Positions 32,445 to 63,465 of a DNA stretch of 64,000 nucleotides are shown here, piece after piece; position 1 is the first letter of the stretch; the number at the start of each line of letters is the position of its first letter. Location of the stretch: positions 5,244,858 to 5,308,857 of the forward strand of contig OZ004598.1 in the NCBI GenBank assembly GCA_963924555.1, in the 5' to 3' direction. The DNA comes from Crambe crambe. Its lineage: Eukaryota; Porifera; Demospongiae; Poecilosclerida; Crambeidae. A program made the translations under genes and the position numbers. Below the pieces are notes generated by a model. The model searched no databases, was not told where the DNA came from, and saw nothing but the letters and a program-made list of their open reading frames with translations.

Positions 32445-34712
32445 ATGGAGGAGAGAAAGAGGGCAGTGCCTATACAGAGCTCACATTACGCCGTCAAGAA
32501 AAAAGTAATTGTATTATGCTTGAATAATTTATTAAGTAGTGATTATAATTCTGTAGATGAAATTGGAAACAAGCAGGAAGAAAAAACCAGGATTTGATGA
32601 TGAAATCTTCAATGAAACGACCTACTACATCAAGGATGGTTTGTTTGAAGAACAATAGAAACCTATTATACCCCAGTATCGAATTGGACCAGTAGATCCC
32701 TTGATACAGGGAGGGATTCCACCTTTTCTTCTGGGTCTGACTGCATAATAATTGTATAAAATATACAGGGCTACGATACGTGAATCCATATTACTTCACC
32801 TTCACCACATATGCCAAGGGGAGGTGGGTGGGATCAACCGTGTACGATGTATTTTGCAGAGAGTTTCAATCAGAGAGTCCAGAGTACTATGTAAGTTAAT
32901 GCACTTTTCATTTGTGCACTACTCTTGATTTATTGTGGTCCACAGGAGAGTGCTATTAAAGCTGGAAAAGTGACAGGTGAGTCTAATTCAGGACCTGTGG
33001 GAAAACTCATTATTCCATTGGTCCTGCTTAGTGAATGGCAGAACTGCTACTAGAGACACAGTCATAGAGGACAATGCTTTGATTTGCCATCGTGTCCATC
33101 GCCACGAGCCTCCAGTGACTGCCAAACCTCTCACCATCATCCACCAAGACAAGGACTTGGTGATCTTGGACAAACCATCCTCCATACCAGTATGTACACT
33201 CTCACTTATCGATTAATGGAATGGAATGTTCTGTAGATTCATCCATGTGGGCGGTATAGGCACAACACCATTGTGTTCTTATTGGGGAGAGAATACAACT
33301 TGAGAAATCTTCACAGTATGATCCTCTCTCTCCCTTCCCCCTTTTAAGAGTTAATCTCTCTCTCCCTCTCTACCTCCAGCTGTGCACAGACTGGATCGAC
33401 TCACTTCAGGACTACTAATCCTGGCAAAGTCCATCCATCGAGCTCAAGAGCTGGCAGAGGAGATCCGGGAGAGAACCGTTACTAAAGTATATGTCTGCAG
33501 GGTACAGGGAGAGTTCCCGAGGTAATTGGGGATGATCCTTATTAGAAATGCTCGCTGGTTGCTGGCAAGTTCCCACTCAAGGGGTTCCCACTCAAGGGGT
33601 TCCCACTCAAGGGGTTCCCACTCAAGGGGTGCTCACTGGTGGATTTTTGTTTCTATTCCATGTGTAGTTCTCCTGTTGAGTGCACTCAACCGATTCTTGT
33701 CTTCTCACACAAGTTGGGTTTGTCCAGAGTTGATACTGAGGGCAAGCCTTGCAGCACTTGCTTCACTCGGCTCTCTTACAATGGAGAAACTAGTGTTGTT
33801 CAATGTGAGCTGTATAGTTACCTCTCTCTTATTATATATTATTACTGTCCACTTTTAAAATCACCATCTGTATGACTGTGCTGTGGGTGGTCAATTATTT
33901 AGGTGAACCCAAAACAGGACGAATGCATCAGATACGAGTCCACCTCCAATGGCTTGGTAAGAAACACCATCTAAATAATTAGCTATAATTCCTGTTCTTT
34001 CAGGATATCCTATAGTGAATGACCCTCTTTACAATCATCCATCATGGAGATGTGGTGAAGGTTATAATCATCCATCACAGAGATGTGGCAAAGGTGCTAA
34101 TAAGAGTCCTTGCATTGGCACTGGTGCTGGTGACAGTAGCAAGGCCGATGGTGGTACTAGCAAGGCCGATAACAGTGTTGACAAGAGAAGTGATAAAGAT
34201 GGTGACAAAAGTGAAAGAGGGAAGAAGTTTGAAAAGGAGCTAGATGAGCAGCCTTATTTGGAGAGAGTTGTCAGTGGAATTATCCAGAGCAGACTTGGAT
34301 TGACTTCTAAGGTGGTATCTTGTAGAAAAGGGAGCGAGGAGGGAGTTACAGAAAATGGAGGAGGAGAAGTGAAAGTAGAAGATAGTGATGGAAGTGGCAA
34401 AGACAAACAAATCAGAAAGGACACTAGTGACAGGACTACTGATGAGAAGCTGTGGAGAATAGATTCATCATCATCCGCTACTTCTGAGAAACGTTCTGAT
34501 GATATTGATTGCACGGAATGCAACCTCTCCAGACCTATCCCTTCTCCTAAAGATCTAGTCATGTACCTACACGCCCTCTCCTACAAGGTAATTAGTCTTT
34601 CTTAGGCCACTAATATCATTAGAGCCTTATTTCTTTATATGCATAGGGCAAGGGGTGGTCCTTCTCTACATCCATGCCTGACTGGGCTCACCCTGAGTGG
34701 AACTCTAGCTAG
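32445..34712 (+). CDS. RPUSD2: RPUSD2-like RNA pseudouridine synthase
   Basis: It starts MEERKRAVPIQSSHYAVKKK. Then come NETTYYIKDGLRYVNPYYFT, VYDVFCREFQSESPEYY, the S4-like ESAIKAGKV..VNGRTAT, and the synthase core KPLTIIHQDKDLVILDKPSS, then IHPCGRYRHNTIVFLL. The catalytic motif is VHRLDRLTSGLLILAKS (D of HRLDRLTSG is the nucleophile), followed by CRVQGEFP, GLSRVDTEGKPCSTCFTRLS, EPKTGRMHQIRVHLQWLGYP and IVNDPLYNHPSW. About 150 residues of Lys/Asp/Glu/Ser-rich insert follow, then LVMYLHALSYKGKGWSFST and a WAHPEW ending. It is a RluA-family enzyme. The stop codon at 34710-34712 lies inside the target duplication of a transposon. Confidence 0.92.
33570..33629. repeat. Four copies of a 15-bp repeat in an RPUSD2 intron
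   Basis: Unit ttcccactcaagggg runs four times without change. Confidence 0.95.
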
Positions 34713-34717
34713 TCAGG

Positions 34718-35107
34718 TAGCCTCGTTCCCAGGCCCCTCCCACGAAGAAGGAGAGGGCCTGGTACAGACTGTTTGCGCATGCTCTATTTTCCCAGAAAAT
34801 CTGGGAATCCGTATATCTTTGTAAAGCACTCAGCATATCTAAGCAGTAAACTTCTAATGTCGCGAACGTCAAACGGATAAGCTTAACCTTTGACCTTTCT
34901 TTGCCACTTGATTTGACATGTGGTTTCCCAGCTATCACGCGGCAAGCCGTATTTGTGGTCCGTAATATTTCTCCGTTTTGAATCCACGTAGATTAAACAA
35001 TGTGCGGAGAAATTTACTGAAATATTTACGGAAAAGTTAGCGCATGCGCAAACAGTCTGTACCAGGCCCTCTCCCTTCTTCGTGGGAGGGGCCTGGGAAC
35101 GAGGCTA
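34718..35107. mobile_element. 390-bp TIR element of the TAGYCTC family, 9-bp target duplication
   Basis: Terminal inverted repeats of about 66 bp begin TAGCCTCGTTCCCAGGCCCC and end with the reverse complement at 35107. The two arms differ at only a couple of positions. CTAGTCAGG flanks both sides (34709-34717 and 35108-35116), an exact 9-bp duplication. It carries no coding capacity. Long TIRs plus a 9-bp duplication fit a non-autonomous Mutator-like (MULE) element; the superfamily is inferred. Confidence 0.9.
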
Positions 35108-35184
35108 CTAGTCAGGTAGCCTTTTATTTTCATGAAATAATCCACACAGTAATTTTTTTTTTTTAAATAAGCAATTCAATTTAC

Positions 35185-45010: not shown

Positions 45011-45185
45011 GCTGCCCACGTGGGGTCAAAGTTCAAAGCATGTCTACATCTCACCCCGTACCCGGTACCCGGACCCGGTGGCACGTGGCTAGTCTCGCGG
45101 GCCCGACCCTTTACCAACCGGTTGGTAAAGGGTCTGGCCCGCGAGACTACCCAGTGACCGTGGGCGGAGGTAGGCTGGATTTATA
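45011..45185. promoter_or_regulatory. Head-to-head promoter, POP4 / PYROXD1, with inserted hairpin
   Basis: There are 175 bp between starts with E-boxes at 45017-45022 and 45082-45087. Roughly a third of the region is the 60-bp hairpin element at 45090-45149. Confidence 0.55.
45090..45149. mobile_element. 60-bp hairpin element, TAGTCTCG termini
   Basis: TAGTCTCGCGGGCCCGACCC followed by TTTACCAACCGGTTGGTAAA and the reverse complement of the first part make an almost perfect inverted repeat with no real loop. Termini match the TAGYCTC family, but the flanks (gcacgtggc / cccagtgac) agree at only 5 of 9 positions, so a target duplication is not shown here. Confidence 0.75.
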
Positions 45186-47494: not shown

Positions 47495-48253
47495 TCACAG
47501 TTCTATTCCAGCTTTTTTTGAGAGAATGCACATTATTCCTGGATATGTTTTGGCAATCTTTCCTTCTCCATAGTATTCCTTCATGGCTTCAATGTTAAAG
47601 TGAGTGTCATCGAAGACACCATGAGCAGGCTTTACGTGTATCTTGTAGTGTTCTACAAGACTATATACATCTTTAAACTCTTCTTTAAAATCCTTTTTCA
47701 TCAAATAGATGGTTTCAAAATCATGAGATGAGGCAATGCGTAAGTACTCATCTAATTGTGTGCCAAAGAATCCATCACCTCTACACTTATAAAATTCGGC
47801 ACTGAACATTTCAGCTGGACCAAGTTTTTTCCTGATATCGAACTTAATGGAACACACAAAACCAAACTTACCACTGGGCTTTAAGCTCTTGGCAACTTGT
47901 TGGAAGATCAGGTCTTTGTCTTCACACCAATGGAGGACATAATTTGCAAATATGATATCATAGTCTGTCCCAGGGATGTTTTGTGCTCTTCCCTCATGAT
48001 ACTCTAAGTTGCTAGCAGGATACTTCTCCCTGGCTAGTTTCAGACGTTCCACATCGGGGTCAATTGCTACAACTTTTCCTTCAGGCCCAACCATTTCTGC
48101 CAAGACCTTGGAGAAATACCCAGTCCCACAGCCAAGGTCAAGAACTTTACAGCCTTTCTCTGGGGCTAAAAGTTGTAGCAATTCATGTCCATGTTCCCTC
48201 TGGACACTGGCAGTATCATCATAGACTTCAGCTTGGTTGAACTTGGAGGACAT
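47495..48253 (-). CDS. Class I SAM-dependent methyltransferase, array copy 1 (type A)
   Basis: It is a single-exon gene of 252 residues from ATG 48253 (MSSKFNQAEVYDDTASVQR). The Rossmann methyltransferase motifs are all present: VLDLGCGTGYFSKVLAEMVG (motif I), VVAIDPDVERLKLAREKYPA (acidic end of beta-2), then YDIIFANYVLHWCEDKD and VAKSLKPSGKFGFVC. The substrate half follows (GPAEMFSAEFYKCRGDGFFG, YSLVEHYKI, TYPGIMCILSKK). It resembles methyltransf_11/25-type small-molecule enzymes (trans-aconitate, JH-acid or arsenite methyltransferase-like); the substrate cannot be predicted. No intron is visible, unlike nearly all genes to the left. It is convergent with PYROXD1 (91 bp between stops). The open antisense frame (starting MLAGYFSLASFRR) is a shadow. 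Confidence 0.88.
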   Translation of the reverse strand: MSSKFNQAEVYDDTASVQREHGHELLQLLAPEKGCKVLDLGCGTGYFSKVLAEMVGPEGKVVAIDPDVERLKLAREKYPASNLEYHEGRAQNIPGTDYDIIFANYVLHWCEDKDLIFQQVAKSLKPSGKFGFVCSIKFDIRKKLGPAEMFSAEFYKCRGDGFFGTQLDEYLRIASSHDFETIYLMKKDFKEEFKDVYSLVEHYKIHVKPAHGVFDDTHFNIEAMKEYYGEGKIAKTYPGIMCILSKKAGIEL

Positions 48254-48454
48254 CCCCTTCAATACTCAAGCATAAAACTTACTTCTATGCACTCTCAGTG
48301 GTTTGAAATGACAAGTCATGACTGTGGACTGAAGAATACTCTCTTGTAGGGTTTCCTCAATATAACTATTTAGCTACCAAGGACATCTTTTCACATTACA
48401 GCAAAATTAATGATTTCATTTTTGTGGTGTAAAGTTTTGGACTCTGTGTATTAA

Positions 48455-49153
48455 GGTGGCGGGTAGGTATTTGCTCATGAATAATTCATGAGTTAATGAG
48501 GCGAGTAGTTGCACCGACTATGAGATGCTACAGTTGAAAAATACAGTTTAATACTGACTAACACTTCCTACTCTACAACTGAGGGCAGATCAGACACTCG
48601 AGATCACTACCGTTGCAGAGAAACTCAACCACTAAGCAGCCATACCTCGATCGATTTTTTGACGTCAATTTTCTCAAACTGCAGCCATGTGCTGACCGTA
48701 TTTTGTACTTTTTCTTATTATATGAACCAGTGGGCAGGGCCAGACTGAGAGATTTTGAAAAGAAGCCACTGTATGCGAGAGCTATGGCCCATCGATCGTT
48801 CGATCGACGGCTAAAAGCGATCAAAATTCAGGAGTGTTGGCTTTTCTGGCTAAAATCTCTCCGTGCCGCCCTACATCTTGGTTTATACAACTGGAATAAG
48901 CACAAAAGACAGTCATCACAAGCCTGTAGTTCGAGAAAATTGACGTCAAAAAATCGATCGAGGTATGGCTGCTTAGCGGTTGAGTTTCTCTGCAACGGTA
49001 GTGTTCTCGAGTGTCTGGTTTGCCCTCAGATGTAGAGTAGGAAGTGCTAGTCAGTATGAAACTGTAGTTTTCAACTATACCATCTCATAGTCGGTGCAAC
49101 TACTCGCCTCATTAACTCATGAATTATTCATGAGCAAACGCATACCCGCCGCC
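48455..49153. mobile_element. 699-bp foldback element with TTAA target duplication
   Basis: Arms of about 230 bp: the left begins GGTGGCGGGTAGGTATTTGC and the right ends GCAAACGCATACCCGCCGCC. Both contain CTCATGAATAATTCATGAG and CATACCTCGATCGATTTTTT in opposite orientation. TTAA flanks each side (48451-48454, 49154-49157). The paralogous spacer at 57412 reads ctgtgtaTTAAacacagac without the element, an empty site that fixes the borders. It has no convincing ORF. The TTAA duplication suggests a piggyBac-like source. Confidence 0.93.
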
Positions 49154-49215
49154 TTAAACACAGACAAAACAACCACTTTATGTTGCATCACTTACTAGCT
49201 ACCCATCACTTGAGT

Positions 49216-49959
49216 TCAGTTTTGTTGCAGCTTTTTTGAGAGAATGCAGATCATTCCTGGATATGTCTTGGCAACCTTTCCTTCACCATAGTACTCCTTC
49301 ATGGCTTCAATGTTAAAGTGAGTGTCATCAAAGACACCATGAGCAGGCCGTGTGTATATCTTGTAGTGTTCTACAAGACTATATACATCTTTGAACTCTT
49401 TTTTATATTCTTTTTCTGTTGAATAAATGATTTCAAAATGAGATGAGGCAATGCGTAAGTACTCATCTATTTGTGCGCCAAAGAATCCATCATCTCTACA
49501 CTTGTAAAATTCAGCACTGAACATTTCCGCTGGACCAAGTTTTTTCCTGATATCGAACTTAGTAGAACACACAAAACCAAACTTGCCACCTGGCTTTAAG
49601 CTCTTGGCAACTTGTTGGAAGACCAGATCTTTATCTTCACACAAGTGGAGGATGTAATTTGCAAATACAATATCGTAGTCTGTCCCTGGAATATCTTGTG
49701 CTCTTCCCTCATGATACTCCAAGTTGCTAGCAGGATACTTCTCCCTGGCTAGTTTCAGACGTTCCACATCGGGGTCAATTGCTACAACCTTTCCTTCAGG
49801 CCCAACCATTTCTGCCAAGACCTTGGAGAAGTACTCAGTCCCACAGCCAAGGTCAAGAACTTTACAGCCTTTCTTTGGGGCTAAGAGTTGTAGCAATTTA
49901 TGTCCATGTTCCCTCTGGACACTGGCAGTATCATCATAGGCTTCAGCTTGCCAAGACAT
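49216..49959 (-). CDS. Methyltransferase array copy 2 (type A')
   Basis: ATG 49959 (MSWQAEAYDDTASVQREHGH) is chosen over a GTG 15 bp upstream; the A' N-terminus differs from type A (MSSKFNQAEVYDD). It is 247 residues, intact and intronless, and ends SKKLQQN. Motif I is VLDLGCGTEYFSKVL: the glycine after the second GCGT is replaced by Glu, which may weaken SAM binding. It also has LHLCEDKD where type A has LHWCEDKD. It shares about 90% of its sequence with copy 6 and, where present, copy 3. Confidence 0.85.
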   Translation of the reverse strand: MSWQAEAYDDTASVQREHGHKLLQLLAPKKGCKVLDLGCGTEYFSKVLAEMVGPEGKVVAIDPDVERLKLAREKYPASNLEYHEGRAQDIPGTDYDIVFANYILHLCEDKDLVFQQVAKSLKPGGKFGFVCSTKFDIRKKLGPAEMFSAEFYKCRDDGFFGAQIDEYLRIASSHFEIIYSTEKEYKKEFKDVYSLVEHYKIYTRPAHGVFDDTHFNIEAMKEYYGEGKVAKTYPGMICILSKKLQQN

Positions 49960-50216
49960 CAATAGCAGCTGCACTTAGTAACTATGTAAACTCACTACCT
50001 AAATTAATTGGAAACCCAACCACTTCACAGTACAGTTTTTATTCAAGTACACCATTCTTGGAGCATGTGAAAAGCAAAGTGAAGTCCAGCTAGAGAACAA
50101 ATTAAGTGCTAGAGCATAACTAATAGTTACGTCATTTTTTTTTGAGAATGCATGCAATGGAGGCTTTATATGTCAACACTTTCTTTCAGAGTTTCGATAA
50201 GAAGTAGGAGAACTTT

Positions 50217-50577
50217 TTGGGAGTTAGGGAGCCACATAATTATGACAAAACTCAATGCCTTTATGGGGCCTCACTATATTCTACAGAACGGAACGGAACG
50301 GTTCCGGGACCCTATTTAACAGAACGGAACTTTCACTGCGCATGCGTATTGTGGGACACGAATCATTTTTGGAATTCGATTATATTACACAGACAAACAA
50401 ACAAGTCCAAGTCATGGCGCTCAGTCTAGAGAGGGGGGAGAGTTGGGCATGCGTATATGCATACATTAGTCACTGACTCTGTGTTCTTTAGCTAACCTAT
50501 TCTGAACTCTTACTTTTAATTCTGTACTCTATATGCCCATTGGGCCTTTACAATGAACTTTGACTTTGACTTTGACC
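50217..50577. other. Spacer with GC-rich CGGAACGG patch
   Basis: It contains ggaacggaacggttccggga and tttcactgcgcatgcgta (50287-50346). An inverted relative lies at 55485-55545. No gene was seen. Confidence 0.5.
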
Positions 50578-50702
50578 TTACGGATGTTTCAATTGGACAT
50601 TAACATCTATTAACCTAAGAGGTCACTTTCCAGGTAAAGCCATTATGGACTGAGCAGCAGCTAAACAAGGGTCACAAATAAAACATCTCCTCTTTGCTGA
50701 AG
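50578..50702. repeat. 125-bp direct repeat, copy 1
   Basis: It runs from ttacggatgtttcaattgga to catctcctctttgctgaag. It is repeated in the same orientation at 54341-54466 with a one-base insertion (ttttcc for tttcc). The pair brackets copies 3 and 4 of the methyltransferase. Confidence 0.92.
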
Positions 50703-50724
50703 GGTACCTGGTAGTGTACAATAT

Positions 50725-50860
50725 AGCTGGTAAGTGATACAACATAAAGTGTTGTTTTGTCTGTGTTTAATACACAGAGTATATCATAAAATATTTCCAT
50801 ATATACTCTGTGTATTAAACACAGACAAAACAACACTTTATGTTGTATCACTTACCAGCT
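50725..50860. repeat. Perfect hairpin with 60-bp arms
   Basis: The left arm 50725-50784 (agctggtaagtgatacaaca...agtatat) and right arm 50801-50860 are exact reverse complements with a 16-nt loop. The right arm is the methyltransferase spacer sequence (tgtgtattaaacacagacaa), so the hairpin arose by inverted duplication of that spacer. Confidence 0.95.
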
Positions 50861-51014
50861 ACCCATCACTTACTAGCTACCCATCACTTGTACACTACTA
50901 GCTACCCATCACTTACTAGCTACCCATCACTTACTAGCTACCCATCACTTGTACACTACTAGCTACCCATCACTTACTAGCTACCCATCACTTGTACACT
51001 ACTAGCTACCCATC
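50861..51014. repeat. Minisatellite 'tagctacccatcactt'
   Basis: About eight copies of tagctacccatcactt, some followed by gtacactac. A shorter version of the same array precedes copies 2 (49196) and 6 (57456). Confidence 0.93.
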
Positions 51015-51022
51015 ACTTGAGT

Positions 51023-51560
51023 TCAGTTTTGTTGATATTCTTTTTCTGTTGAATAAATGATTTCAAAATGAGATGAGGCAATGCGTAAGTACTCATCTAT
51101 TTGTGTGCCAAAGAATCTATCGCCTCTACACTTGTAAAATTCAGCACTGAACATTTCCGCTGGACCAAGTTTTTTCCTGATATCGAACTTAGTAGAACAC
51201 ACAAAACCAAACTTGCCACCTGGCTTTAAGCTCTTGGCAACTTGTTGGAAGACCAGATCTTTATCTTCACACAAGTGGAGGATGTAATTTGCAAATACAA
51301 TATCGTAGTCTGTCCCTGGAATATCTTGTGCTCTTCCCTCATGATACTCCAAGTTGCTAGCAGGATACTTCTCCCTGGCTAGTTTCAGACGCTCCACATC
51401 GGGGTCAATTGCTACAACTTTTCCTTCAGGCCCAACCATTTCTGCCAAGACCTTGGAGAAGTACCCAGTCCCACAGCCAAGGTCAAGAACTTTACCGCCT
51501 TTCTTTGGGGCTAAGAGTTGTAGCAATTCATGTCCATGTTCCCTCTGGACACTGGCAGCT
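51023..51560 (-). pseudogene. Methyltransferase array copy 3 (type A'), doubly deleted
   Basis: It aligns with copies 2 and 6 but has two deletions. At the 5' end 40 bp are missing between two CTGC tetranucleotides, removing the start codon and the sequence up to SVQREHGH; no in-frame ATG replaces it. At the 3' end about 180 bp are missing after STEKEY, which joins directly to QQN and the stop. The remaining frame is open from SVQREHGH to QQN (motif I VLDLGCGTGYFSKVL intact), so the damage is recent or the piece is still constrained. A functional enzyme is unlikely. Confidence 0.85.
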
Positions 51561-51742
51561 GCACTTAGTAACTATGTAAACTCACTACCTAAATTAATTG
51601 GAAACCCAACCACTTCACAGTACAGTTTTTATTCAGAACAATATATCAATCAATCAATCAAGCAATGTAAAGCCCAAAGGGCATATGCAAAGGAAAAATT
51701 ATAATTATAATCTCGCACATGCACATTGAACTGTATAAAATA

Positions 51743-52480
51743 CTAATAGTGCAAAATACATTGAAGTTCATGAGTTAGCTTCACTATCTTTCCCTCATCA
51801 TAGTAGCTTTTCATGGCATCAGTGTGAAAGTGAGACTCATCAAAGGAATTGCGACTATGCATTCTCAAGAAGTCAACAAATTCAAATACATTGTTAAATT
51901 CATCCCTGGATTCATTCTTTGTTGAATAAATTATCTTATAATTGTGTGATAAGGCAATGCTTAAATATTCATCCATTGACATAGGAAAGAATAGCTCAGT
52001 GGAGACAGCCTGCATGAATTCAGCACTGTAATGTTCAGTGGGTCCAAAAAAATCTTTATCCAACTCTAAGCAGACCGAAAAGGCAAATTTACCTCCAGGC
52101 TTTAAGCTCTTGGACACTTGCTGAAACACCAAGTCTTTATCTTCACACCAGTGGAGGATATAATTTGCAAATACAATATCGTAGTCTGTCCCAGGGATGT
52201 TTTGTGCTCTTCCCTCATGATACTCCAAGTTGCTAGCAGGATACTTCTCCCTGGCTAGTTTCAGACGCTCCACATCGGGGTCAATTGCTACAACCTTTCC
52301 TTCAGGCCCAACCAGTTCTGCCAAGACCTTGGAGAAGTACCCAGTCCCACAGCCAAGGTCAAGAACTTTGCAGCCTTTCTCTGGGGCTAGGTGTTGTAGC
52401 AACTTGTGTCCCTCTCTTCTTTGTTGGATAGAAGTTTTATCATAGGCTTCAGCTTGATTAAAACTGTTAGTAGACGACAT
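51743..52480 (-). CDS. Methyltransferase array copy 4 (type B)
   Basis: It is a 245-residue intronless gene from ATG 52480 (MSSTNSFNQAEAYDKTSIQQ). The N-terminal half (LGCGTGYFSKVLAELVG, AIDPDVERLKLAREKYPASN, FANYILHWCEDKDL) is almost the same as type A. From about residue 125 onward it is different: FSVCLELDKDFFGPTEHYSA, ELFFPMSMDEYLSIALSHNY, FEFVDFLRMHSRNSFDESHF, ending LQCILHY. Copy 7 is its close sister, and the upstream 30 bp (attgtctttgatcgataagc) are shared with it before the sequences diverge. Confidence 0.88.
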   Translation of the reverse strand: MSSTNSFNQAEAYDKTSIQQRREGHKLLQHLAPEKGCKVLDLGCGTGYFSKVLAELVGPEGKVVAIDPDVERLKLAREKYPASNLEYHEGRAQNIPGTDYDIVFANYILHWCEDKDLVFQQVSKSLKPGGKFAFSVCLELDKDFFGPTEHYSAEFMQAVSTELFFPMSMDEYLSIALSHNYKIIYSTKNESRDEFNNVFEFVDFLRMHSRNSFDESHFHTDAMKSYYDEGKIVKLTHELQCILHY

Positions 52481-52585
52481 TGTCTTTGATCGATAAGCCC
52501 TTGCTTGTCTACAGTCGTTTAATACGCCAGCGGTAATTTATGCGCACTTTTATTTGCACGGTTCTACGTCATAATTTTATTAAAA

Positions 52586-52854
52586 ATGGCTATTCGACCG
52601 CGTGGAAGGTGTCCGTGTTTGGCTGTTGGTGTGATGCTTATTGCTACGATTATTTGGATAGTTTGTAGTTCCTTTGAAGGAAGCTTTCTATCTTTTATCA
52701 CCAGTTTCAGATGCCAGGACTAAGCCTTTCCTAAGTACCACTACTAGTTTTTGTGGATGTGCTACAATTAGAAACAAAGATGATCGAACAGAAGAGGATG
52801 CTATGCAGCATTGGCTGGACAGAACAACTCTAAATTGGATATTACAACGGAGGT
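52586..52854 (+). CDS. Possible first two exons of a type II membrane protein
   Basis: Exon 1 (52586-52664) would encode MAIRPRGRCPCLAVGVMLIA with TIIWIV, a short basic N-terminus and one membrane helix. A 46-bp intron (GTAGTT...TTTCAG) joins in phase to exon 2 (52711-52854): ARTKPFLSTTTSFCGCAT then RNKDDRTEEDAMQHWLDRTT and LNWILQRR, ending at GTGAGT. It starts 106 bp from the ATG of methyltransferase copy 4 on the other strand, so it fits the divergent-pair pattern. I do not recognise the family. It may be a gene remnant, since later exons are unclear. Confidence 0.35.
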
Positions 52855-53029
52855 GTGAGTAAAGACTGTAACTACCAAATTTCATAACCTAGGAGAAAAC
52901 AGAAAATTTGTTTGCACGTGTCCACCATTAGCTAGCTCTGTTTCACACTAATTGAACTCATTTGCATCCAACTCCAGATTGCCTTGATTGTCCTCTTCTC
53001 CAAATATCATGTCCATGATTTCTTCTGAG

Positions 53030-53184
53030 TGGTTACAAGTGCATCACAGGCTGCTCCACCAGACGCTGCAGCTGCCTCAGGAAACAGACCCAGTGTGGCG
53101 AAGAGTGCCAGTGCCAGAATTGTGACAATCTCTATCCCCCCTCTGATGACAACACCAGCAAGAGGCTAGTGAACCCTTACAATG
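53030..53184 (+). CDS. Cysteine-rich CXC (tesmin/TSO1-like) exon, partial gene
   Basis: Between an AG acceptor at 53028-53029 and a GT donor at 53185 the frame reads GYKCITGCSTRRCSCLRKQT and QCGEECQCQNCDNLYPPSDD, then NTSKRLVNPYN. The pattern CxxGCxTRRCxCxxxxxxCGxxCxCxNCxN is that of CRC/CXC zinc-binding repeats. These are found in tesmin/LIN54 and, in many invertebrate genomes, in transposon-borne proteins. Only one repeat is seen and no complete gene was assembled around it. A TE-derived fragment is more likely than a LIN54 gene. Confidence 0.5.
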
Positions 53185-54340
53185 GTAAGCTTTACTTCCC
53201 ACCCATGATTAACTAGTGGTTCCAGAATCATAGAATTTGGTTGGCTTGTTGCCACATGTCAACATGTTCTTTGCCAATGTCATCTGAGGGTGTAGCCAGG
53301 TGTTTTGTTGTATATCCTCCAACCATTCAGAATGTTGTTTGTTTGTTTGATTTTGGCTTTCTAAATTTTAGAAAATGGGCTGTCGGTGATACATTAGCAA
53401 AGCCAGTGGCATATTTCTTGTCATATGCAGTTCCAATTAAATGTATAAATACCAACTGTATATTGGTGTTAGGGTGTTATACACCATAATTATGATAGTT
53501 TGACTTGCACATGGGGGTTGGTGAAGGTACATCTATTGCTCTGTATAGCTCTAGCTATGCTTTGTGGATTCATTTTTGTGGCTACAAATGAAGTGTCTTC
53601 ACACCCTGGTACTTAGCATTTCTAACCCAATGAGCCCTTCGGGTATGTGTTGGCATATTCATAACTTTATTGATATCCACCCTACAGGGCCTGCAGCGCA
53701 GATGGCTGCATCAAGAGGCAACTCTGGAGAGACAGGGCATACTCCCAAGCTGGCTCACATACCTATTGTCTTGTGTGGCTGTGATAGCTATTACATATTT
53801 GCCTTGTATCTCTACTCATAATGACTCTTTTAATAATTCATTATCAACAACTGATTACCTTGTGGTCAGGTATATACGTATGGATGTTCATACAAAAAAG
53901 GTAGAGACGCATGTCTAGTCTACCGCCTTGATTGATAACAGCTGAAATTGTAGCGTGTGTAGCGCGCTTTCTACCGTTGGGAACAAAATGTATTTTGCGT
54001 GAGTGTAACTTCAGTTCATGGTCTCAAAGATAGTGCAGAATTTAAGTCGTGGCCACTTACAGAAAATCCAGTTGCACCTCTACCGTCAAGGCACTTGTTT
54101 CCAAGTGATCGTGACTTCGTGTATCTGGAAGTAACAACTTTTTCACATAGTTAGATAGGTCTATGTGTGATCTGTTTGTGTGAAGTGTTTTACTTACTAC
54201 ACGTATAAAGTGTAAGAGTTATAGCAGAAATTATAAGTTAACTAAACAGGAAAATATTCCAAATGAAGAACTTCCGGTGCAAATAAAATTGTATGGGGCC
54301 CTATGACTTCCGGTTCCGCTGGCGTAACGACTAGACGTTG
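53185..54340. other. Spacer of the methyltransferase array, no assignable gene
   Basis: Scattered short ORFs have no recognisable domain. A weak exon candidate (GLQRRWLHQEATLERQ, about 53687-53785) follows an AG, but I cannot connect it to anything. Confidence 0.4.
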
Positions 54341-54466
54341 TTACGGATGTTTCAATTGGACATTAACATCTATTAACCTAAGAGGTCACTTTTCCAGGTA
54401 AAGCCATTATGGACTGAGCAGCAGCTAAACAAGGGTCACAAATAAAACATCTCCTCTTTGCTGAAG
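54341..54466. repeat. 125-bp direct repeat, copy 2
   Basis: Same orientation as 50578-50702 and nearly identical; it is preceded here by an unrelated cttccggttccgctggcg patch. Confidence 0.92.
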
Positions 54467-55299
54467 CTCACAACAAATCTGAAAGTTTTTCAAGACATAA
54501 TTATGATAAAAAGACAAAATGTACAAAGAATTGTAGTGATAAAAGGTAGATATGCATGTCTCTCTTTAGTTTGAGTTGGTGCTACTTTTCCCCTGAGGAC
54601 TACATAAAGAATCACAAAATATTTCCATCTTTAGTGGTAAAATTTCATCTTTAAGAAAAATCTGCAATGGAGAGAAAACAACCTAAACGTCACAAGTAGT
54701 AGTTAACCAGTGTTTGACTCACCATTGCTTGATACAGTTGGCCTGATATACCCGTCCTGTTATCTGTCATCAATACCTGTGGCCATTATAAATAATTTGA
54801 AGGGAAGGTTAGTGGGCACTTCACAGCCCTTCTACATATGAACTAGATCTCACATGTTTGGCTGGGGACTGTCAAACCACTCTCAAGCCCATTTATATGA
54901 GTGACCATCGGAAGGAGAAGGGGTCAGACAGAGATATGGATGGCTCAAGTTGTTATTATTGCAAATAATTATATAGGACTGCCAGTGCTTGCTACTAAAT
55001 AGTAGTGGCCACCTATGGGCCTTCTAACTCTTGTTAAAGAGAGGAATAAAGTAGAATCCTAGAAATTAATCCTTCTATAAATATAAAGTACATAAGGATT
55101 TTAATTGATTTTTGCTGACCTCGTAACGCATCCAGAAAAATGAGCACCAACTAGCTTCCTAGAAATCTTGTTACAGCTCCCAAAGGGAGTATCCTTTTCA
55201 AGCTTTACTGGTCCGATTTCCTTGGAAAAATCAAGAACAGGCCTGTCAACATTAAACATGGAGGTTTGCTTAATATTATGTGACATCACTTGGGTTGTT
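54467..55299. other. Intergenic spacer, nothing assigned
   Basis: AT-rich sequence without coding signals or clear repeats. Confidence 0.4.
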
Positions 55300-55453
55300 A
55301 CAGTGGATTGCAGGTTGCTTGACACTAGTACTTCAGCCAGCAAGGTCACATGGACCAATCAGATTCATGCTGACATCATTGCCTGCAAATCTGATTGATC
55401 CATGTGACCTCGGTGGCTGACGTACTGGTGTCAAGCAACCTGCAATCCACTGT
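55300..55453. repeat. 154-bp foldback with 65-70 bp arms
   Basis: The arm ACAGTGGATTGCAGGTTGCT... at 55300-55366 is mirrored by ...AGCAACCTGCAATCCACTGT ending at 55453, with some mismatches. The two mirror ORFs on opposite strands (both LVSSNLQSTV) are a by-product. Confidence 0.88.
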
Positions 55454-55583
55454 AGCTAGCTTAGCTAGGCCCGTTGCCATGCGCGCATGCGCAGTGAAAG
55501 TTCCGTACCGTGAAATAGGGTCCCGGAACCGTTCGGTTCCGGACCGATTTTTCTTCACATGCAATTATTTTGGGGTGCAGTGC

Positions 55584-56316
55584 TAGTCTCTGTCCCAGCC
55601 CCCTAGCTCACAGCACTGGATGTATTGCATCACCAGCACGCGAGGAAGGGGTCTGGTGGTCGGGCTGCAGCGGTCACGGAACTGCGCCGGAATTCAGGCG
55701 CACCCAATGATTAGATTTCCATTTTACCACACATTAACTTTCGCGCGAAAAGGGGTGTGGTAGGTGAAATTTGAATAGAGGCCAGATGATAAGCAAGCTG
55801 CTGTGGATGAAGCAATAAAGTATGCCTGTTCAACTCTGAATGTAATGGGAATGCTCTCAACACCATATGTTGAACCAATCTTGCCCCTCAATTTGATGTC
55901 CAGTGTCTGCAGTTCATTTTGAATCTCTTGAACTCGCTTAACTCTTTATAGCATGGATGTTTGCAGATCCAGGGTCCACCATTAGCTATTGGAGAGATCA
56001 TTGCAGGGTTTATCCTTCCCTGGGAGATATACTTCTCTAGAACAGGTAGCACTTCCTTGTTAGCACTACTGTGGAGAACCCTGCGCTCTCTGTGATCAGT
56101 GAGCTCTTTCCCACAGACCCTGCAAGAAAGCTGCCTCATTGCTGCTGCATGCAATAACTTTTTCCCCGCGGCAAAATGAACACGCATGCGCATAATTATT
56201 ATTCCAAACATTCCTCAGTTCCGTGACCGCTGCAGCCCGACCACCAGACCCCTTCCTCGCGTGCTGGTGATGCAATACATCCAGTGCTGTGAGCTAGGGG
56301 GCTGGGACAGAGACTA
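55584..56316. mobile_element. 733-bp TIR element of the TAGYCTC family with an ORF
   Basis: TIRs of about 100 bp begin TAGTCTCTGTCCCAGCCCCC and end with the complement ...GGGACAGAGACTA at 56316. GTGCAGTGC flanks both sides exactly (55575-55583 and 56317-56325), a 9-bp duplication. It is the largest family member here and the only one with coding capacity. The superfamily is inferred to be Mutator-like from the 9-bp duplication and long TIRs. Confidence 0.93.
55888..56211 (-). CDS. ZAD-like zinc-binding ORF inside the 733-bp element
   Basis: 107 residues: MFGIIIMRMRVHFAAGKKLL, then MRQLSCRVCGKELTDHRERR, VLHSSANKEVLPVLEKYISQ, INPAMISPIANGGPWICKHP and CYKELSEFKRFKMN. The CxxC ... C(x3)C with ELxxFxxF after the last Cys resembles the ZAD (zf-AD) fold, a dimerising zinc module. 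The start may be the Met before RQLSCR. Whether it is a captured host exon or part of the parent transposon is open; no transposase motif is present. Confidence 0.55.
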   Translation of the reverse strand: MFGIIIMRMRVHFAAGKKLLHAAAMRQLSCRVCGKELTDHRERRVLHSSANKEVLPVLEKYISQGRINPAMISPIANGGPWICKHPCYKELSEFKRFKMNCRHWTSN

Positions 56317-56482
56317 GTGCAGTGCAGAGTTGTAGCTATGGGGCCGGGGAGAAACTGAAAAACGAGACTAGCAAGGTGCCATTTGCAATTTGTTGTACAT
56401 GGTTTTTACAGTATAAGTTTTAAATCTGTATAGCTAACCCACATGATTCAAAATGGAAGACATTCTCTTCCTTCAAAATTGA

Positions 56483-57214
56483 TCAAGTTTTTTTGAGAAT
56501 GCATTGTATTACTGGAAACTGTTCTGTGAAGTTTTCACCATAGTGTTTCTTGAGGGAATCAATGTTAAAATGTGTATCATCAAAAGTACCATGTGTATGA
56601 ATCTTCCAGAACTCTACAAACTCAAATATATCTTCATACATCACTCTGGAGTAATCTTCTGCCAAGTAAACTGTCTCTAAACTTTGTGATGAGGCAAGGC
56701 TCAAGTATTTATCCATTGACACAGTAAAAACACGATCGTGTAAACCTTTTATGAATTCAGCACTGAACATTTCAGCTGGTCCCAGTTTTTCCTGTACATC
56801 AAACGTTGTGGCACTCACAAAAGCAAACCTGCCACCTGGCTTTAAGCTCTTGGCAACTTGTTGGAAGACCAGATCTTTATCTTCACACCAGTGGAGGATG
56901 TAATTTGCAAATATGATATCATAGTCTGTCCCAGGGATGTTTTGTGCTCTTCCCTCATGATACTCTAAGTTGCTAGCAGGATACTTCTCCCTGGCTAGTT
57001 TCAGACGCTCCACATCAGGATCAATTGCTACAACTTTTCCTTCAGGCCCAACCATTTCTGCCAAGACCTTGGAGAAGTACCCAGTCCCACAGCCAAGGTC
57101 AAGAACTTTACAGCCTTTCTCTGGGGCTAAAAGTTGTAGCAATTCATGTCCATGTTCCCTCTGGACACTGGCAGTATCATCATAGGCTTCAGCTTGGTCG
57201 AACTTAGAGGACAT
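56483..57214 (-). CDS. Methyltransferase array copy 5 (type A N-terminus, distinct C-terminus)
   Basis: It is a 243-residue intronless gene from ATG 57214 (MSSKFDQAEAYDDTASVQRE). The first half is almost identical to copy 1, and so is the 5' flank (caatactcaagcataaaact-type). The second half is its own: FAFVSATTFDVQEKLGPAEM, HDRVFTVSMDKYLSLASSQS, YEDIFEFVEFWKIHTHGTFD, ending IQCILKKT. It therefore looks like a hybrid between type A and an older lineage. Confidence 0.88.
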   Translation of the reverse strand: MSSKFDQAEAYDDTASVQREHGHELLQLLAPEKGCKVLDLGCGTGYFSKVLAEMVGPEGKVVAIDPDVERLKLAREKYPASNLEYHEGRAQNIPGTDYDIIFANYILHWCEDKDLVFQQVAKSLKPGGRFAFVSATTFDVQEKLGPAEMFSAEFIKGLHDRVFTVSMDKYLSLASSQSLETVYLAEDYSRVMYEDIFEFVEFWKIHTHGTFDDTHFNIDSLKKHYGENFTEQFPVIQCILKKT

Positions 57215-57399
57215 CTCCTTCAATACTCAAGCACAAAACTTACTTCTATGCACTCTCAGTGGTTTGAAATGACAAGTCTGACTGTGGACTGAAGCCTCAT
57301 AAGAATACTCTCTTGTAGGGTTTCCTCAATATAACTATTTAGCTACCAAGGACATCTTTTCACATCACAGCAAAATTAATGATTTCATTTTTGTGGTAT

Positions 57400-57503
57400 A
57401 AAGATGGACGCTGTGTATTAAACACAGACAAAACAACACTTTATGTTGCATCACTTACTAGCTACCCATCACTTGTACACTACTAGCTACCCATCACTTG
57501 AGT
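57400..57503. other. Methyltransferase spacer holding the empty TTAA site
   Basis: gctgtgtattaaacacagac at 57409-57428 matches the two flanks of the 699-bp element exactly across the TTAA, followed by the same tttatgttgcatcacttact. Confidence 0.9.
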
Positions 57504-58246
57504 TCAGTTTTGTTGCAGCTTTTTTGAGAGAATGCACATCATTCCTGGATATGTCTTGGCAACCTTTCCTTCACCATAGTACTCCTTCATGGCTTCAATG
57601 TTAAAGTGAGTGTCATCGAAGACACCATGAGCAGGCTGTGTGTATATCTTGTAGTGTTCTACAAGACTATATACATCTTTGAACTCTTTTTATATTCTTT
57701 TTCTGTTGAATAAATGATTTCAAAATGAGATGAGGCAATGCATAAGTACTCATCTATTTGTGTGCCAAAGAATCCATCACCTCTACACTTGTAAAATTCA
57801 GCACTGAACATTTCCGCTGGACCAAGTTTTTTCCTGATATCGAACTTAGTAGAACACACAAAACCAAACTTGCCACCTGGCTTTAAGCTCTTGGCAACTT
57901 GTTGGAAGACCAGATCTTTATCTTCACACAAGTGGAGGATGTAATTTGCAAATACAATATCGTAGTCTGTCCCTGGAATATCTTGTGCTCTTCCCTCATG
58001 ATACTCCAAGTTGCTAGCAGGATACTTCTCCCTGGCTAGTTTCAGACGTTCCACATCGGGGTCAATTGCTACAACTTTTCCTTCAGGCCCAACCATTTCT
58101 GCCAAGACCTTGGAGAAATACCCAATCCCACAGCCAAGGTCAAGAACTTTACAGCCTTTCTTTGGGGCTAAGAGTTGTAGCAATTCATGTCCATGTTCCC
58201 TCTGGACACTGGCAGTATCATCATAGGCTTCAGCTTGCCAAGACAT
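57504..58246 (-). pseudogene. Methyltransferase array copy 6 (type A'), frameshifted
   Basis: It begins MSWQAEAYDDTASVQREHGH at ATG 58246 and matches copy 2 up to STEKEYKK. There, a T6 tract in copy 2 (ctcttttttat) is T5 here, shifting the frame to SSKMYIVL and stop at 57659. The remaining C-terminal sequence continues downstream in another frame to 57504. Motif I is LGCGIGYFSKVL. A sequencing error in the homopolymer would give the same picture. Confidence 0.8.
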
Positions 58247-58469
58247 CAATAGCAGCTGCACTTAGTAACTATGTAAACTCACTACCTAAATTAATTGGAA
58301 ACCCAACCACTTCACAGTACAGTTTTTATTCAGAATAATATATTTTCTAGCTAGAAATTCATTCTTGGAGCATGTGAAAAGCAATTCAATTCAACATCAT
58401 CAACATCTTTAACACTCTGGAGTACATATGGAGCTTAATTTGTGTCAAAATTCAGTTATGAGATATTAA

Positions 58470-60290
58470 CTGTTATCAGTTCGGGTGTATACAATCGGTG
58501 GACTGGACTACTGGACTACTGGACTGTGGCACATGCGAAATTATAGAAGTGTAGCTGTGTACATTAGTAATTTGTCTACACTAGACGTGCGTAATCATCC
58601 TGCATACCTCTGAATGACACTTGTTGTCTTGCACAAAAAATGGTAAGGCCATAGAATCTACTACATAGATGATGGTATATGTTTGCTGCTTGTAAGAACT
58701 AGCATAAAATAAATAAATTTGCTACCAGTTGGAAATTTATAGTCAAGCTCTACCCTCCCCTCCATTCCACCCACTTCCCTCCCTCCAGTCCAGTGATCCA
58801 GTCAGACACCCAGATACAGGTGGTGTCACTGGTGCATGGTAGCTTTGAACCTGTGTGTACTTCCTAGGATAGTTTTTTTCGGGGAGGGAGGGAAGTGGAA
58901 TGGAGGGGAGGGTAGAATTCGACTAAATTTGGATAGCTTTTACAAGCGGCAAACATACCTTCATCTTGTAGCTATAGATCGTATGGCCTTACCATTTTTT
59001 GCGCAAGACAACAAGAATCATTTAGTCTGCACATGCTCAGATGTAGGAGTGCAATTATAAACTACTGCAATTAGGCATGTGAACTGATGAGGGAAGATGT
59101 AATATTAGTAATTGCAGTAATTACTGGTAGCTACACTAGTAATTTGTTTACCACTAGAAGTGCATATCATCCTGCATACCTCTGAATGATACTTGTAGTC
59201 TTACACAAAAAATGGTAAGGCCATAGCTACAATCTATAGCTACAATTCAAGATGAAGGTATGTTTGCCACTTGTAAAAGCTACATATTCAAATTTAGTCA
59301 AACTCTACCCTCCATTCCATTCCACTTCCCTCCCTCCCCGTACAAAACTATCCTAGGAAGTACATACAGGTTCAAAGCTACCATGCACCAGTGATACCAC
59401 CTGTATCTGGGTGTCTGACTGGACCACTGGACTGGAGGGGAGGGTAGAGCTTGACTATAAATTTCCAACTAGTAGCAAATGTATTTCTTAACATGTATAC
59501 AAGCAGCAAACATATACTTTCATCTAGTAGATTCTATGGCCTTACCATTTTTTGTGCAAGACAATAAGTGTCATTCAGAGGTATGCAGGATATGCACTTC
59601 TAGTGGTAAACAAACGCAGCTACACTTCTATAATTTTGCATGTGCCAGGTGATAGGGCAGTCCAGTAGTCCAGTCCAGTAGTCCAGTCCAGTAGTCCAGT
59701 CCACCAATTGTATAGGGTAGGTGTGGGTATTATGAGTCAGCTAAGTATTGTTGCTCTTTTCTTGGAAATGGACTATCTTAGAATGCTGAAAATTGCTCCA
59801 GATATAAAATAGGTTATGTAGAACTAATGTGTGGAGAAAGTAATAAAAATATTGCATCTTGTAGATAGGAGGCATGATCTTACATGACACACTCGGGAAG
59901 GTATTATGAGTCATAGGTATGAATTATGAGTCGCTGGCTTGATTTTTGCCTCTAAGAATTGATAATGTAGCTAAGATTTGTACAAAACAAAAATAATAAC
60001 CTTAGATTACTTTAAAATTCATTTTTTACTCCATCTTGTAGCATCATTGCTTCCCTGTGCTTTTTTTATTCAGATTGGTCACGATTATACCCATTTTTAA
60101 ACTTCTTATTTAAGATTATGTTTATACATGAATAAGGCATTTTTCAGGATGATTTTATTCGATCAAAAGACCAAAAAAAATTTAAGTTTTCATATCTAAA
60201 GTATCAACTCTTGTAGATTATTATCAAGTGGTGAACCCATAATAGGGACTGACTCATAATACCCACACCTACCCTACACCCTATCAGTTC
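58470..60290. repeat. Large palindromic foldback element, interrupted by a younger insertion
   Basis: The left arm starts near ttatcagttcgggtgtatac (about 58473) and runs through ggactggactactggacta, tagaagtgtagctgtgta, ccttaccatt-complement aatggtaaggccatagaa and accctcccctccattcca. The right arm has the same words reversed to about 59712 and resumes as caccctatcagttcag after 60276. The centre is near 59080-59110. Within each arm there is a further inverted repeat (aatggtaaggccat and ctaccctcc words occur four times), so the structure is nested. No ORF of note. Confidence 0.85.
59715..60274. mobile_element. 560-bp element with TA target duplication
   Basis: 26-bp TIRs GGGTAGGTGTGGGTATTATG with AGTCAG follow at both ends (inverted), flanked by TA (59713-59714, 60275-60276). 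The opposite arm of the host palindrome (about 58483-58496) preserves the uninterrupted site gtgTAtacaatcg. It is AT-rich inside with no ORF. TA duplication fits Tc1/mariner-type MITEs. Confidence 0.92.
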
Positions 60291-60305
60291 AGTTTTTTGT
60301 TCAGT

Positions 60306-60431
60306 TATCAATTCAGTCCATGGAATTCAGTTATCAGTTCAGGGAATTCAGTTACCAGTTCAGTCCATGGAATTCAGTTACTAGTTCAGTCCATGGAATT
60401 CAGTTACCAGTTCAGTCCATGGAATTCAGTT
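60306..60431. repeat. 26-bp minisatellite 'cagttaccagttcagtccatggaatt'
   Basis: Four to five imperfect copies differ at the accagt/atcagt/actagt position; one copy lacks the ccat. The region to 60940 holds no gene I can support. Confidence 0.9.
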
Positions 60432-60944
60432 AGGCAATTACAATGATAGATGCATAAAATGGAAGCTATAATGCAATCTCTTCCAGATGCTAGTGGGGCT
60501 AGTACAAGCTCTGAGTCTGCTGAAAGTGCATCAGCTTCAACTGAGGTATGTTAATGTAGTTATCTCCTGCATGTTAAGCTTGTTAATATATATTTTTTCC
60601 AGATGATCCTAGCTAGCTATTGGGCAGTGGTAAAGTGAAGCAAAAGGAGAGAGAGGATGTGGGGTACTTTCTTCCATTCAAGAACATCCATAAAAAGTAT
60701 TACAATTGAAGCCACTGGAACAGAAGCTTCCCCCTTTTTTATTGACTCATAAAAATGGTGTTTAATTTCTCATTGAAGAAATAAAGAGACGATGAATAAA
60801 TACAACAACTCTCTTATGAAGAGCGTGATACATTCCACGAGCATTGCACAGCTACAGTGACAAAATCTTCCCACATACATAATTAAAATATTGGTGACGT
60901 CATAATTATAATCTCGCACATGCGCATTGCGCAACTGTATAATA

Positions 60945-61682
60945 CTAATAGTGCAAAATACATTGAAGTTCATGAGTTAGCTTCACTATCTTTCCCTCAT
61001 CATAGTAGCTTTTCATGGCATCAGTGTGAAAGTGAGACTCATCAAAGGAATTGTGACTATGTATTCTCAAGAAGTCAACAAATTCAAATACATTGTTAAA
61101 TTCATCCCTGGATTCATTCTTTGTTGAATAAATTATCTTAAAATTGTGTGATAAGGCAATGCTTAAATATTCATCCATTGACATAGGAAAGAATAGCTCA
61201 GTGAAGGCAGCCTGCATGAATTCAGCACTGTAATGTTCAGTGGGTCCAAAAAAATCTTTATCCAACTCTAAGCAGACCGAAAAGGCAAATCTACCTCCAG
61301 GCTTTAAGCTCTTGGACACTTGCTGAAACACCAAGTTTTTATCTTCACACCAGTGGAGGACATAATTTGCAAATACAATATCGTAGTCTGTCCCAGGGAT
61401 GTTTTGTGCTCTTCCCTCATGATACTCCAAGTTGCTAGCAGGATACTTCTCCCTGGCTAGTTTCAGACGTTCCACATCGGGGTCAATTGCTACAACCTTT
61501 CCTTCAGGCCCAACCAGTTCTGCCAAGACCTTGGAGAAGTACCCAGTCCCACAGCCAAGGTCAAGAACTTTGCAGCCTTTCTCTGGGGCTAGGTGTTGTA
61601 GCAACTTGTGTCCCTCTCTTCTTTGTTGGATAGAAGTTTTATCATAGGCTTCAGCTTGATTAAAACTGTTAGTAGACGACAT
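60945..61682 (-). CDS. Methyltransferase array copy 7 (type B)
   Basis: 245 residues from ATG 61682 (MSSTNSFNQAEAYDKTSIQQ), the start conserved with copy 4. An in-frame ATG at 61781 would add 33 basic residues (MHVQYLTPLRMCKIKFKRAK...), but copy 4 has no counterpart, so the shorter form is preferred. It differs from copy 4 by few residues (for example ALSHNFKI versus ALSHNYKI, LRIHSHNSF versus LRMHSRNSF). Downstream the two copies share caatgtattttgcactatta, so at least about 40 bp of 3' flank belong to the duplication unit. It is divergent from EIF6 (187 bp). Confidence 0.88.
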   Translation of the reverse strand: MSSTNSFNQAEAYDKTSIQQRREGHKLLQHLAPEKGCKVLDLGCGTGYFSKVLAELVGPEGKVVAIDPDVERLKLAREKYPASNLEYHEGRAQNIPGTDYDIVFANYVLHWCEDKNLVFQQVSKSLKPGGRFAFSVCLELDKDFFGPTEHYSAEFMQAAFTELFFPMSMDEYLSIALSHNFKIIYSTKNESRDEFNNVFEFVDFLRIHSHNSFDESHFHTDAMKSYYDEGKIVKLTHELQCILHY

Positions 61683-61869
61683 TGTCTTTGATCGATAAGC
61701 CCTTGCTTGTCTAGATTGTGGTTTTGCTCGCTTGAATTTTATCTTGCACATGCGCAAAGGAGTCAAATATTGCACATGCATGTTACATTGTAGTGGTGCA
61801 ATTGTTCAATAGCTATATGAGCTGAGCTGAGCTGCCCCGGGCCGTATCGCTTAACCATTACCGAAGAAG

Positions 61870-63105
61870 ATGGCAGTTCGTGTTCAATTTGAAGGCAACA
61901 ATGAAGTCGGCGTCTTTTCAAAGTTGACCAATGCCTACTGCCTAGTTGCCATAGGAGGTTCTGCTAACTTCTACAGGTGAGGTATCATTAGTGCATAATA
62001 ATACTGGACCTGAATTCTTTGTTAGTGCGCTCTATTTAGAATGCATGATCTATCTTGTAACTTGTGCAGTGTGTTTGAAGGGGAATTGTCAGACGCCATA
62101 CCAGTGGTTCATGCATCCATAGGAGGCTGCAGAATTATTGGTCGCATGTGTGTTGGCAACAGGCATGGATTATTGGTCCCCAACACAACTACTGACCAGG
62201 AACTGCAACATCTTCGAAACTCCCTTCCCGATTCTGTTAAAATCCAACGAGTTGAGGAAAAACTGTCAGCTCTAGGAAATGTCATATCTTGTAATGATTA
62301 TGTAGCACTTGCTCATCCAGACCTTGACAAAGTCGGTTCATTTTTAAGCTGACAGTTTTTTTTAGTGACCCTTTACCTATTTAGGAGACTGAAGAAATCT
62401 TGACAGATACACTGAGTATTGAAGTGTTCAAACAAACAATAGCTTCCAATGTCTTGGTGGGCACATACTGTTGCTTTAGTAATAGAGGTGGACTAGTACA
62501 CCCAAAAACCAAGATAGAAGACCAAGATGAACTTTCATCACTTCTCCAAGTTCCTCTGGTGGTGAGTTGTTCTGGAATCTCTGAACAATGGACATAGCCT
62601 CGTTCCCAGGCTTTCCTCTCTCACGTACCGGAGAGGAAGGCCTGGGAACGAGGCTACAATGGACACACTTGGAATCCATCCTTTGTCCTTTTTACATAGA
62701 GATGTTGTCCTTTTTTTGGAGGTTGTTTTGTATAGAGTTTTAAAAAAAGTTGTCCTTTGTTGGAGGTTTGCCCTCTTTCAAGGTGCCCTTCTATCTATCA
62801 GAGGGTTCCACTGTATTTTAATACTTGGTTATCATTATGTTGTTGTCTACAGGCAGGGACAGTGAACAGAGGGAGTGATGTGATAGGTGCAGGGATGGTG
62901 GTGAATGATTGGGCAGCATTTTGTGGTCTTGATACGACCAGTACTGAACTTTCTGTGATCGAGAGTGTATTTAAGCTGACTGACCAGCAGCAATCGGCCA
63001 TTGCTTCTGAACTTCGAGCCCCTCTGGTAGACAGGTGGGTGTGGTCTCTAAATGTTCAGTATTTGTGTATTGACTATCTTTTCTTTCCCTTTCAGTTTGG
63101 CCTAA
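61870..63105 (+). CDS. EIF6: EIF6, anti-association factor of the 60S subunit
   Basis: It starts [20 protein letters not shown] at 61870. Exons give [116 protein letters not shown] and [20 protein letters not shown]. They end [10 protein letters not shown] then LA and TAA (63103-63105) after a final intron. It is a pentein-fold protein that keeps 60S apart from 40S in the nucleolus and cytoplasm. It is very highly conserved, with all five repeats present. One intron carries a 62-bp transposon hairpin. Confidence 0.98.
62595..62656. mobile_element. 62-bp hairpin of the TAGYCTC family, 9-bp target duplication
   Basis: TAGCCTCGTTCCCAGGC at the left is mirrored by GCCTGGGAACGAGGCTA at the right. 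The first 17 bases equal the terminus of the 390-bp element at 34718. CAATGGACA flanks both sides exactly (62586-62594 and 62657-62665). It sits in an EIF6 intron. Confidence 0.95.
62690..62820. repeat. Repeat fragment related to the 36.5-kb element
   Basis: Words ttgtccttt...ggaggtt occur three times, ending agggttccactgta. It resembles the complement of the 36490-36700 repeat (tagtggaacctctga, ggacaacc). Within an EIF6 intron. Confidence 0.5.
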
Positions 63106-63247
63106 TTATTCACTTGATCATCAATAATACATTAATGAATATATAGTCATGATTTACAATTTTAAAAATTTTGCGTACAATAAAAGATCAGTGATTGGAG
63201 TGAATGAAGAGCTTAGCTAGTGACTTAGTAATCACCACAGGAAAGAG

Positions 63248-63332
63248 TAGTCTCGTGTAGCCAGACCCAATTCTTTTTCTTGGGGGCAGGTGAAAGAAAA
63301 AGGAAAGAATTGGGTCTGGCTACATGAGACTA
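63248..63332. mobile_element. 85-bp hairpin of the TAGYCTC family
   Basis: TAGTCTCGTGTAGCCAGACC with CAATTC is mirrored by gaattgggtctggctacatgagacta. Flanks aggaaagag and aggaaggag agree at 8 of 9, a slightly decayed 9-bp duplication. Confidence 0.88.
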
Positions 63333-63465
63333 AGGAAGGAGAACATGAGTATGGCAATCCATTCATGACAAAAATATCAAATATTGCGTGCAAATTAAGT
63401 ATCCAGTGCAAACTGTGTAAGTCTTGACTTCAAATTTAAAGTATCAAGTCCAAATCAAAGTTCAA

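Follow-up and report, generated by a model that had tools for sequence, protein, structure and literature searches.

Among the described cut-and-paste DNA transposons, the Academ elements come closest to the family considered here. AcademH elements have been reported from animals and fungi (Kojima 2020, as cited in PMC10045372 and PMC10799480) and are named as a helicase-bearing group in PMC10799480. According to PMC10045372, AcademH target duplications are 9 or 10 bp and those of AcademX 3 or 4 bp, a difference tied to the possession of a helicase versus a nuclease. A second comparison is with miniature inverted-repeat transposable elements (MITEs), which are short, gene-less, bounded by terminal inverted repeats (TIRs), present in many copies, and derived from a longer coding element. 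The family described here, whose ends read TAGYCTC, was found in a 64,000-nucleotide stretch ("the window"; contig OZ004598.1) of the 143-Mb, 119-contig genome of the sponge Crambe crambe. Its short copies resemble MITEs in all these respects; unlike typical MITEs, however, many of them are 46-98-bp palindromes with little beyond the two ends, and nearly each has its own centre. The window elements probably represent the non-autonomous copies of an AcademH-type, two-gene transposon that moves by cut and paste.

Five elements with TIRs and one solo end, all with TAGYCTC termini, were checked in the window (Table 1). TAGYCTCG occurs there 10 times, versus 1.32 times expected from shuffles; two of these matches, at 12646 and 56363, lack a partner and by eye look like chance. 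Four elements carry the flanking 9-bp duplications that the sequence-only reading had reported, three exact and one with a single mismatch, and among the flank lengths of 6 to 12 tried at each copy, 9 is the sole fit at all four. The remaining element, a 60-bp hairpin (W60), shows no target duplication (5 of 9 flank positions match); a copy one edit away (L132) has an exact 9-bp duplication. The termini that this hairpin was said to have in common with the solo end were borne out, and no partner for the solo end was found. The 733-bp copy starts TAGTCTCTG, its eighth base deviating from TAGYCTCG.

The same ends and duplications recur across the genome. Searches with the 733-bp element (family B) and the 390-bp element (family A) gave at least 121 and at least 111 matching pieces, respectively; these are lower bounds because 40 of 66 and 40 of 89 candidates were scored. 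Thirty loci were cut out per query, and a locus was kept if both ends were present with at most 4 mismatches in 20, leaving 20 loci for family B and 16 for family A (the window's own copies, L009 and L039, are included, and two extra L041 pairings with a distant end are excluded). In family B, 18 of the 20 have an exact 9-bp duplication (L011 and L012, both among the 18, occupy one site), one has an exact 8-bp duplication, and one has none. In family A, the duplication is exactly 9 bp at 11 of the 16 loci and exactly 10 bp at two, with none at three; one of the 11, L048, is ambiguous, since it sits in a GT repeat. The 9-10-bp targets vary in sequence and show weak base preference, seen at the first base as a weak avoidance of T (65 duplications, made symmetric). 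Tabulation across the genome thus bears out a single TIR group with TAGYCTC ends, running down to hairpins, in which a duplication of 9 bp, sometimes 10 bp, recurs.

Ten longer spans bounded by TAGYCTC-type ends were fetched. Seven (L069, L070, L071, L074, L075, L076, and L078) have an exact 9-bp duplication, although two of them, L074 and L075, were already in the family counts as L028 and L025. The flanks of L073 lack a duplication, and in L072 and L077 the terminal pair was not found. Both L069 (5156 bp) and L073 (4957 bp) carry a helicase on the plus strand and pieces of a DUF6589 protein on the minus strand. The helicase is of the RecQ type, with the Pfam domains DEAD, Helicase_C, and RecQ_Zn_bind. 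On the minus strand of L073, the first exon resembles the zinc-finger-associated domain (26 bits, E 1.1e-5; the Pfam cut-off is 28 bits). Pfam scans covered 14 of the 21 open reading frames (ORFs) of at least 80 aa in L069 and L073, and among the matches of these 14 there was neither a Mutator-like element (MULE) domain nor a member of the XPG family. At L070:326-3924, a different element is nested in a family-B copy; it has TAA on both sides, 34-bp TIRs starting GGCCACTAC, and large frames in which no Pfam match passed the cut-off.

The short window copies can be traced to these longer elements. The 733-bp copy consists of L069 positions 52-309 (95.0%) joined to 4706-5207 (96.4%), with 3 bp common at the junction. 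It is an L069-type element that has lost about 4.4 kb and has retained the first pieces of both genes; like a MITE, it is bounded by TIRs, does not code, and derives from a coding element. The two ends of the 390-bp element, 185 and 205 bp, align to L073 at 89 and 94%.

Table 1. TAGYCTC-family features of the window, with their target duplications
Feature	Position in window	Strand	Remarks
Solo end	32206..32221	+	TAGTCTCGCGGGCCAG; begins like the 60-bp hairpin (by eye)
390-bp non-autonomous element, family A	34718..35107	+	ends TAGCCTCGTTCCCAGGCC; 34-bp perfect TIR plus a further, weaker stretch inward of it; arms counted without one flank base
Target duplication of 390-bp element	left 34709..34717, right 35108..35116	.	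CTAGTCAGG; 9/9
60-bp near-perfect palindrome (W60)	45090..45149	+	ends TAGTCTCGCGGGCC
733-bp internal-deletion derivative, family B	55584..56316	+	TIRs 101 bp, arms counted without one flank base
Target duplication of 733-bp element	left 55575..55583, right 56317..56325	.	GTGCAGTGC; 9/9
Remnant of helicase gene start in 733-bp copy	55782..55829	+	PDDKQAAVDEAIKYAC, as in L069 ORF 236-739; by eye
Probable remnant of zinc-finger-like first exon of putative transposase gene in 733-bp copy	55888..56211	-	CRVCGKELTDHRERR...; zf-AD E 0.04, below Pfam cut-off
62-bp hairpin	62595..62656	+	shorter than the 74-bp form (L122, L126) by 12 central bp
Target duplication of 62-bp hairpin	left 62586..62594, right 62657..62665	.	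CAATGGACA; 9/9
85-bp hairpin	63248..63332	+	ends TAGTCTCGTGTAGCCAGACCC
Target duplication of 85-bp hairpin	left 63239..63247, right 63333..63341	.	left AGGAAAGAG, right AGGAAGGAG; 8/9

DUF6589 has at least 110 matching stretches in the genome (102 of 150 candidates scored), several of which are exons of one copy; some weaker matches, found in far longer frames, may belong to a different group. The same search in 14 control genomes found none. One copy, L118, has the gene order of L069 and L073. No TAGYCTC ends lie within the 5.6 kb of L118 examined, where its own ends were not found either, and its first exon has no Pfam match. This copy, on C17, is one of three equal-scoring DUF6589 matches (C3:7080171, C17:2224650, and C20:3735769), each with a 437-aa open frame. 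A recent spread of the three, of which L118 was read, is a guess.

The predicted structure of a DUF6589 homologue appears to have a DDE-transposase-like fold resembling the hAT (Hermes) and P-element transposases. This likeness rests on VIA, used to re-examine the candidates that Foldseek had listed; Foldseek by itself produced nothing below E 0.001, its P-element rows being at E 0.9 and 1.4, and the DUF6589 profile, searched by sequence against solved structures, matched none of them up to E 1. A D, D, E triad is conserved in 46 of 46, 48 of 49, and 13 of 14 of the rows having a residue at the respective position, and these would be the catalytic residues. Together, the predicted fold and the triad suggest that the DUF6589 protein may be an RNase H-fold DDE enzyme. 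Both features liken its core to the hAT and P-element transposases, whose target duplications, however, are 8 bp, in contrast to the 9-10 bp of the TAGYCTC elements.

Beyond the shared ends, the duplications, the gene content, and the internal deletion behind the 733-bp copy, all observed directly, the following mechanism is proposed. The autonomous form would be about 5 kb long and would comprise a TIR, a RecQ-type helicase gene on one strand, a zinc-finger-like exon and DUF6589 gene on the other strand, and a second TIR. The putative DUF6589 transposase would bind the TAGYCTC ends, excise the element, and join it to a target cut 9 bp apart, with repair of such targets giving rise to the 9-bp (sometimes 10-bp) duplications. 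In this scheme, catalysis would fall to the DUF6589 protein, the short copies would be mobilised in trans, and the helicase may serve in unwinding the ends or in repair.

Two features by which AcademH is described, target duplications of 9 or 10 bp and an element that encodes a helicase (here L069 and L073), are present, and the family is probably to be filed under AcademH. AcademH would also call for a DDE transposase of the Academ superfamily; for a DUF6589 homologue, a DDE fold is predicted. Two points would suit a separate, unnamed superfamily whose DUF6589 transposases gained a RecQ helicase independently of Academ: DUF6589 is not named in the literature searched, and Pfam calls it a domain of unknown function. 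We nevertheless consider a separate superfamily improbable, given that the helicase and the 9-10-bp duplications fit AcademH and that the size of about 5 kb fits Academ elements, whose mean length is 5565 bp in a bivalve library (PMC10294476).

The sequence-only reading had expected the autonomous partner to carry a MULE transposase, an enzyme that makes 9-bp duplications. Such a length, though not specific to MULEs, does lie within the 4-10 bp given for IS256/MuDR in PMC10045372, and MULE transposases do occur in the genome (54 matches). However, the long elements with TAGYCTC ends encode DUF6589 and a helicase, the scanned ORFs contain no MULE domain, and all 54 PF10551 matches lie, by eye, outside the spans bounded by TAGYCTC ends in the searches with the 733-bp and 390-bp elements. 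A partner from another superfamily is what that reading had itself named as grounds for giving up the MULE call, and a MULE origin, now very improbable, is rejected. Kolobok elements duplicate TTAA. KolobokH, although it too carries a helicase (PMC10799480), is scarcely credible and is rejected, since the flank duplications here are 9-10 bp of varied sequence with weak base preference.

The shortest members of the AcademH-like family are the hairpins. Whereas TAGYCTCG alone is weakly enriched genome-wide (4002 and 4024 versus 3420 and 3548), the paired form TAGYCTCGN{30,60}CGAGRCTA occurs at 287 places, same-site copies counted in, versus 0 in the reversed control. Of 50 listed places, 39 were fetched; the other 11 lie on contig 3 at 7.57-7.82 Mb and adjoin three read copies that occupy one site. 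Duplications of 9 or 10 bp, allowing a single mismatch, flank 24 of the 39 (14 exact at 9 bp and 3 exact at 10 bp; L103, among the 24, sits in an AC repeat), versus 6 of 1482 at 9 bp when flanks were paired crosswise, same-site copies not yet merged. A further 34 hairpins form a non-random sample, picked from the better matches to the window hairpins with some weaker matches left out, and have a 9-bp duplication at 12 of 13, 4 of 10, and 7 of 11 places by set. Once same-site copies are merged and the window's three hairpins included, 43 of 67 loci have a duplication (30 exact at 9 bp, 3 exact at 10 bp); among 4422 crossed pairings, one matched at 9 bp and none at 10 bp. Chance origin is rejected by this contrast and by that between the 287 palindrome-bounded places and the empty control. 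Because 43 of the 67 sampled loci keep the duplication, the hairpins are genuine insertions, of elements pared down to the palindromes at their ends. The shortest with a duplication is 46 bp.

Much of the difference among hairpins lies in the centre of the palindrome. In the 14 hp62-like copies, variation is 0.05 in the outer 24 bp versus 0.29 in the centre, and gaps per column are 0.17 versus 3.5. Copies L123 and L127 have one duplicated site and 39 of 40 flank bases in common but differ in length, at 60 and 70 bp, and L099-L101, again at one site, measure 57, 57, and 61 bp. Given this central position of the differences and the unequal lengths of same-site duplicates, many of the differences are centre deletions, at least some of which followed insertion; a hairpin may therefore have moved at a length other than its present one. 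Conversely, some hairpins at unrelated sites are nearly alike: one edit separates W60 from L132, and four separate L122 from L126, each of which is 74 bp long. Such likeness speaks for movement at roughly this size. Hairpins of about 60-74 bp were probably mobile at that length, and the observations are best read as movement at about 60-74 bp or more, the centre being lost later at some sites. The sequence-only proposal, that tiny hairpins still transpose and that some 17 bp are recognised, stands insofar as duplications mark the insertions and near-copies of 60-74 bp lie at unrelated sites; it is weakened by centres that are often altered, in some cases after insertion.

Taken further, that proposal would have each hairpin, including those as short as 46 bp, moving at precisely its current size, with a transposase that needs about 17 bp per end. 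It is consistent with the exact duplications of 9 bp around hairpins of 46, 49, and 50 bp (L112, L116, and L083), with the 10-bp duplications, one mismatch in each, around two of 47 bp (L085 and L098), and with the W60/L132 and L122/L126 pairs. No identical pair at unrelated sites was seen among the sampled hairpins, however, and both the central variation of the hp62-like copies and the same-site length differences argue the other way, so that we regard it as possible though the less likely account. Still more doubtful is the idea that the 46-75-bp palindromes move as such by way of an extruded hairpin or a single strand, as two transposase-bound ends could hardly be paired on so short and stiff a duplex; if true, the RecQ-type helicase that the element encodes would thereby have a function. 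No paper related to very short or palindromic MITEs was found in the literature searched.

Other repeats lie in the same part of the window. A long inverted repeat with 306-bp arms (88%) and TTAAGG ends spans 48451-49157, between two copies of a methyltransferase-like frame; four closely similar frames of this kind, named by eye from a motif, lie on the minus strand within 47495-61805. Two more hairpins, at 50724-50861 and 55299-55454, have the ends TAGCTGG and TACAGTG and fall outside the TAGYCTC family. At 58488-60279, nested and overlapping inverted repeats appear to be several elements inserted into one another. Genes read by eye in the window, a receptor kinase and a tubulin among them, would point to an animal.

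The result is well supported and for the most part ordinary. The transposon probably belongs to a kind already known; what is unusual is how abundant its tiny palindromic relics are. With their insertion-marking duplications, the hairpins form a natural record of palindrome-centre loss in an animal genome, and the series allows the minimum size for transposition to be tested. For DUF6589, a Pfam domain of unknown function, the work provides a useful link to a likely function, connecting it with a predicted DDE transposase fold and with a helicase partner, in elements whose duplications were measured at 9-10 bp. Annotators gain a handle on the many DUF6589 stretches of this genome and on relatives in other animals.
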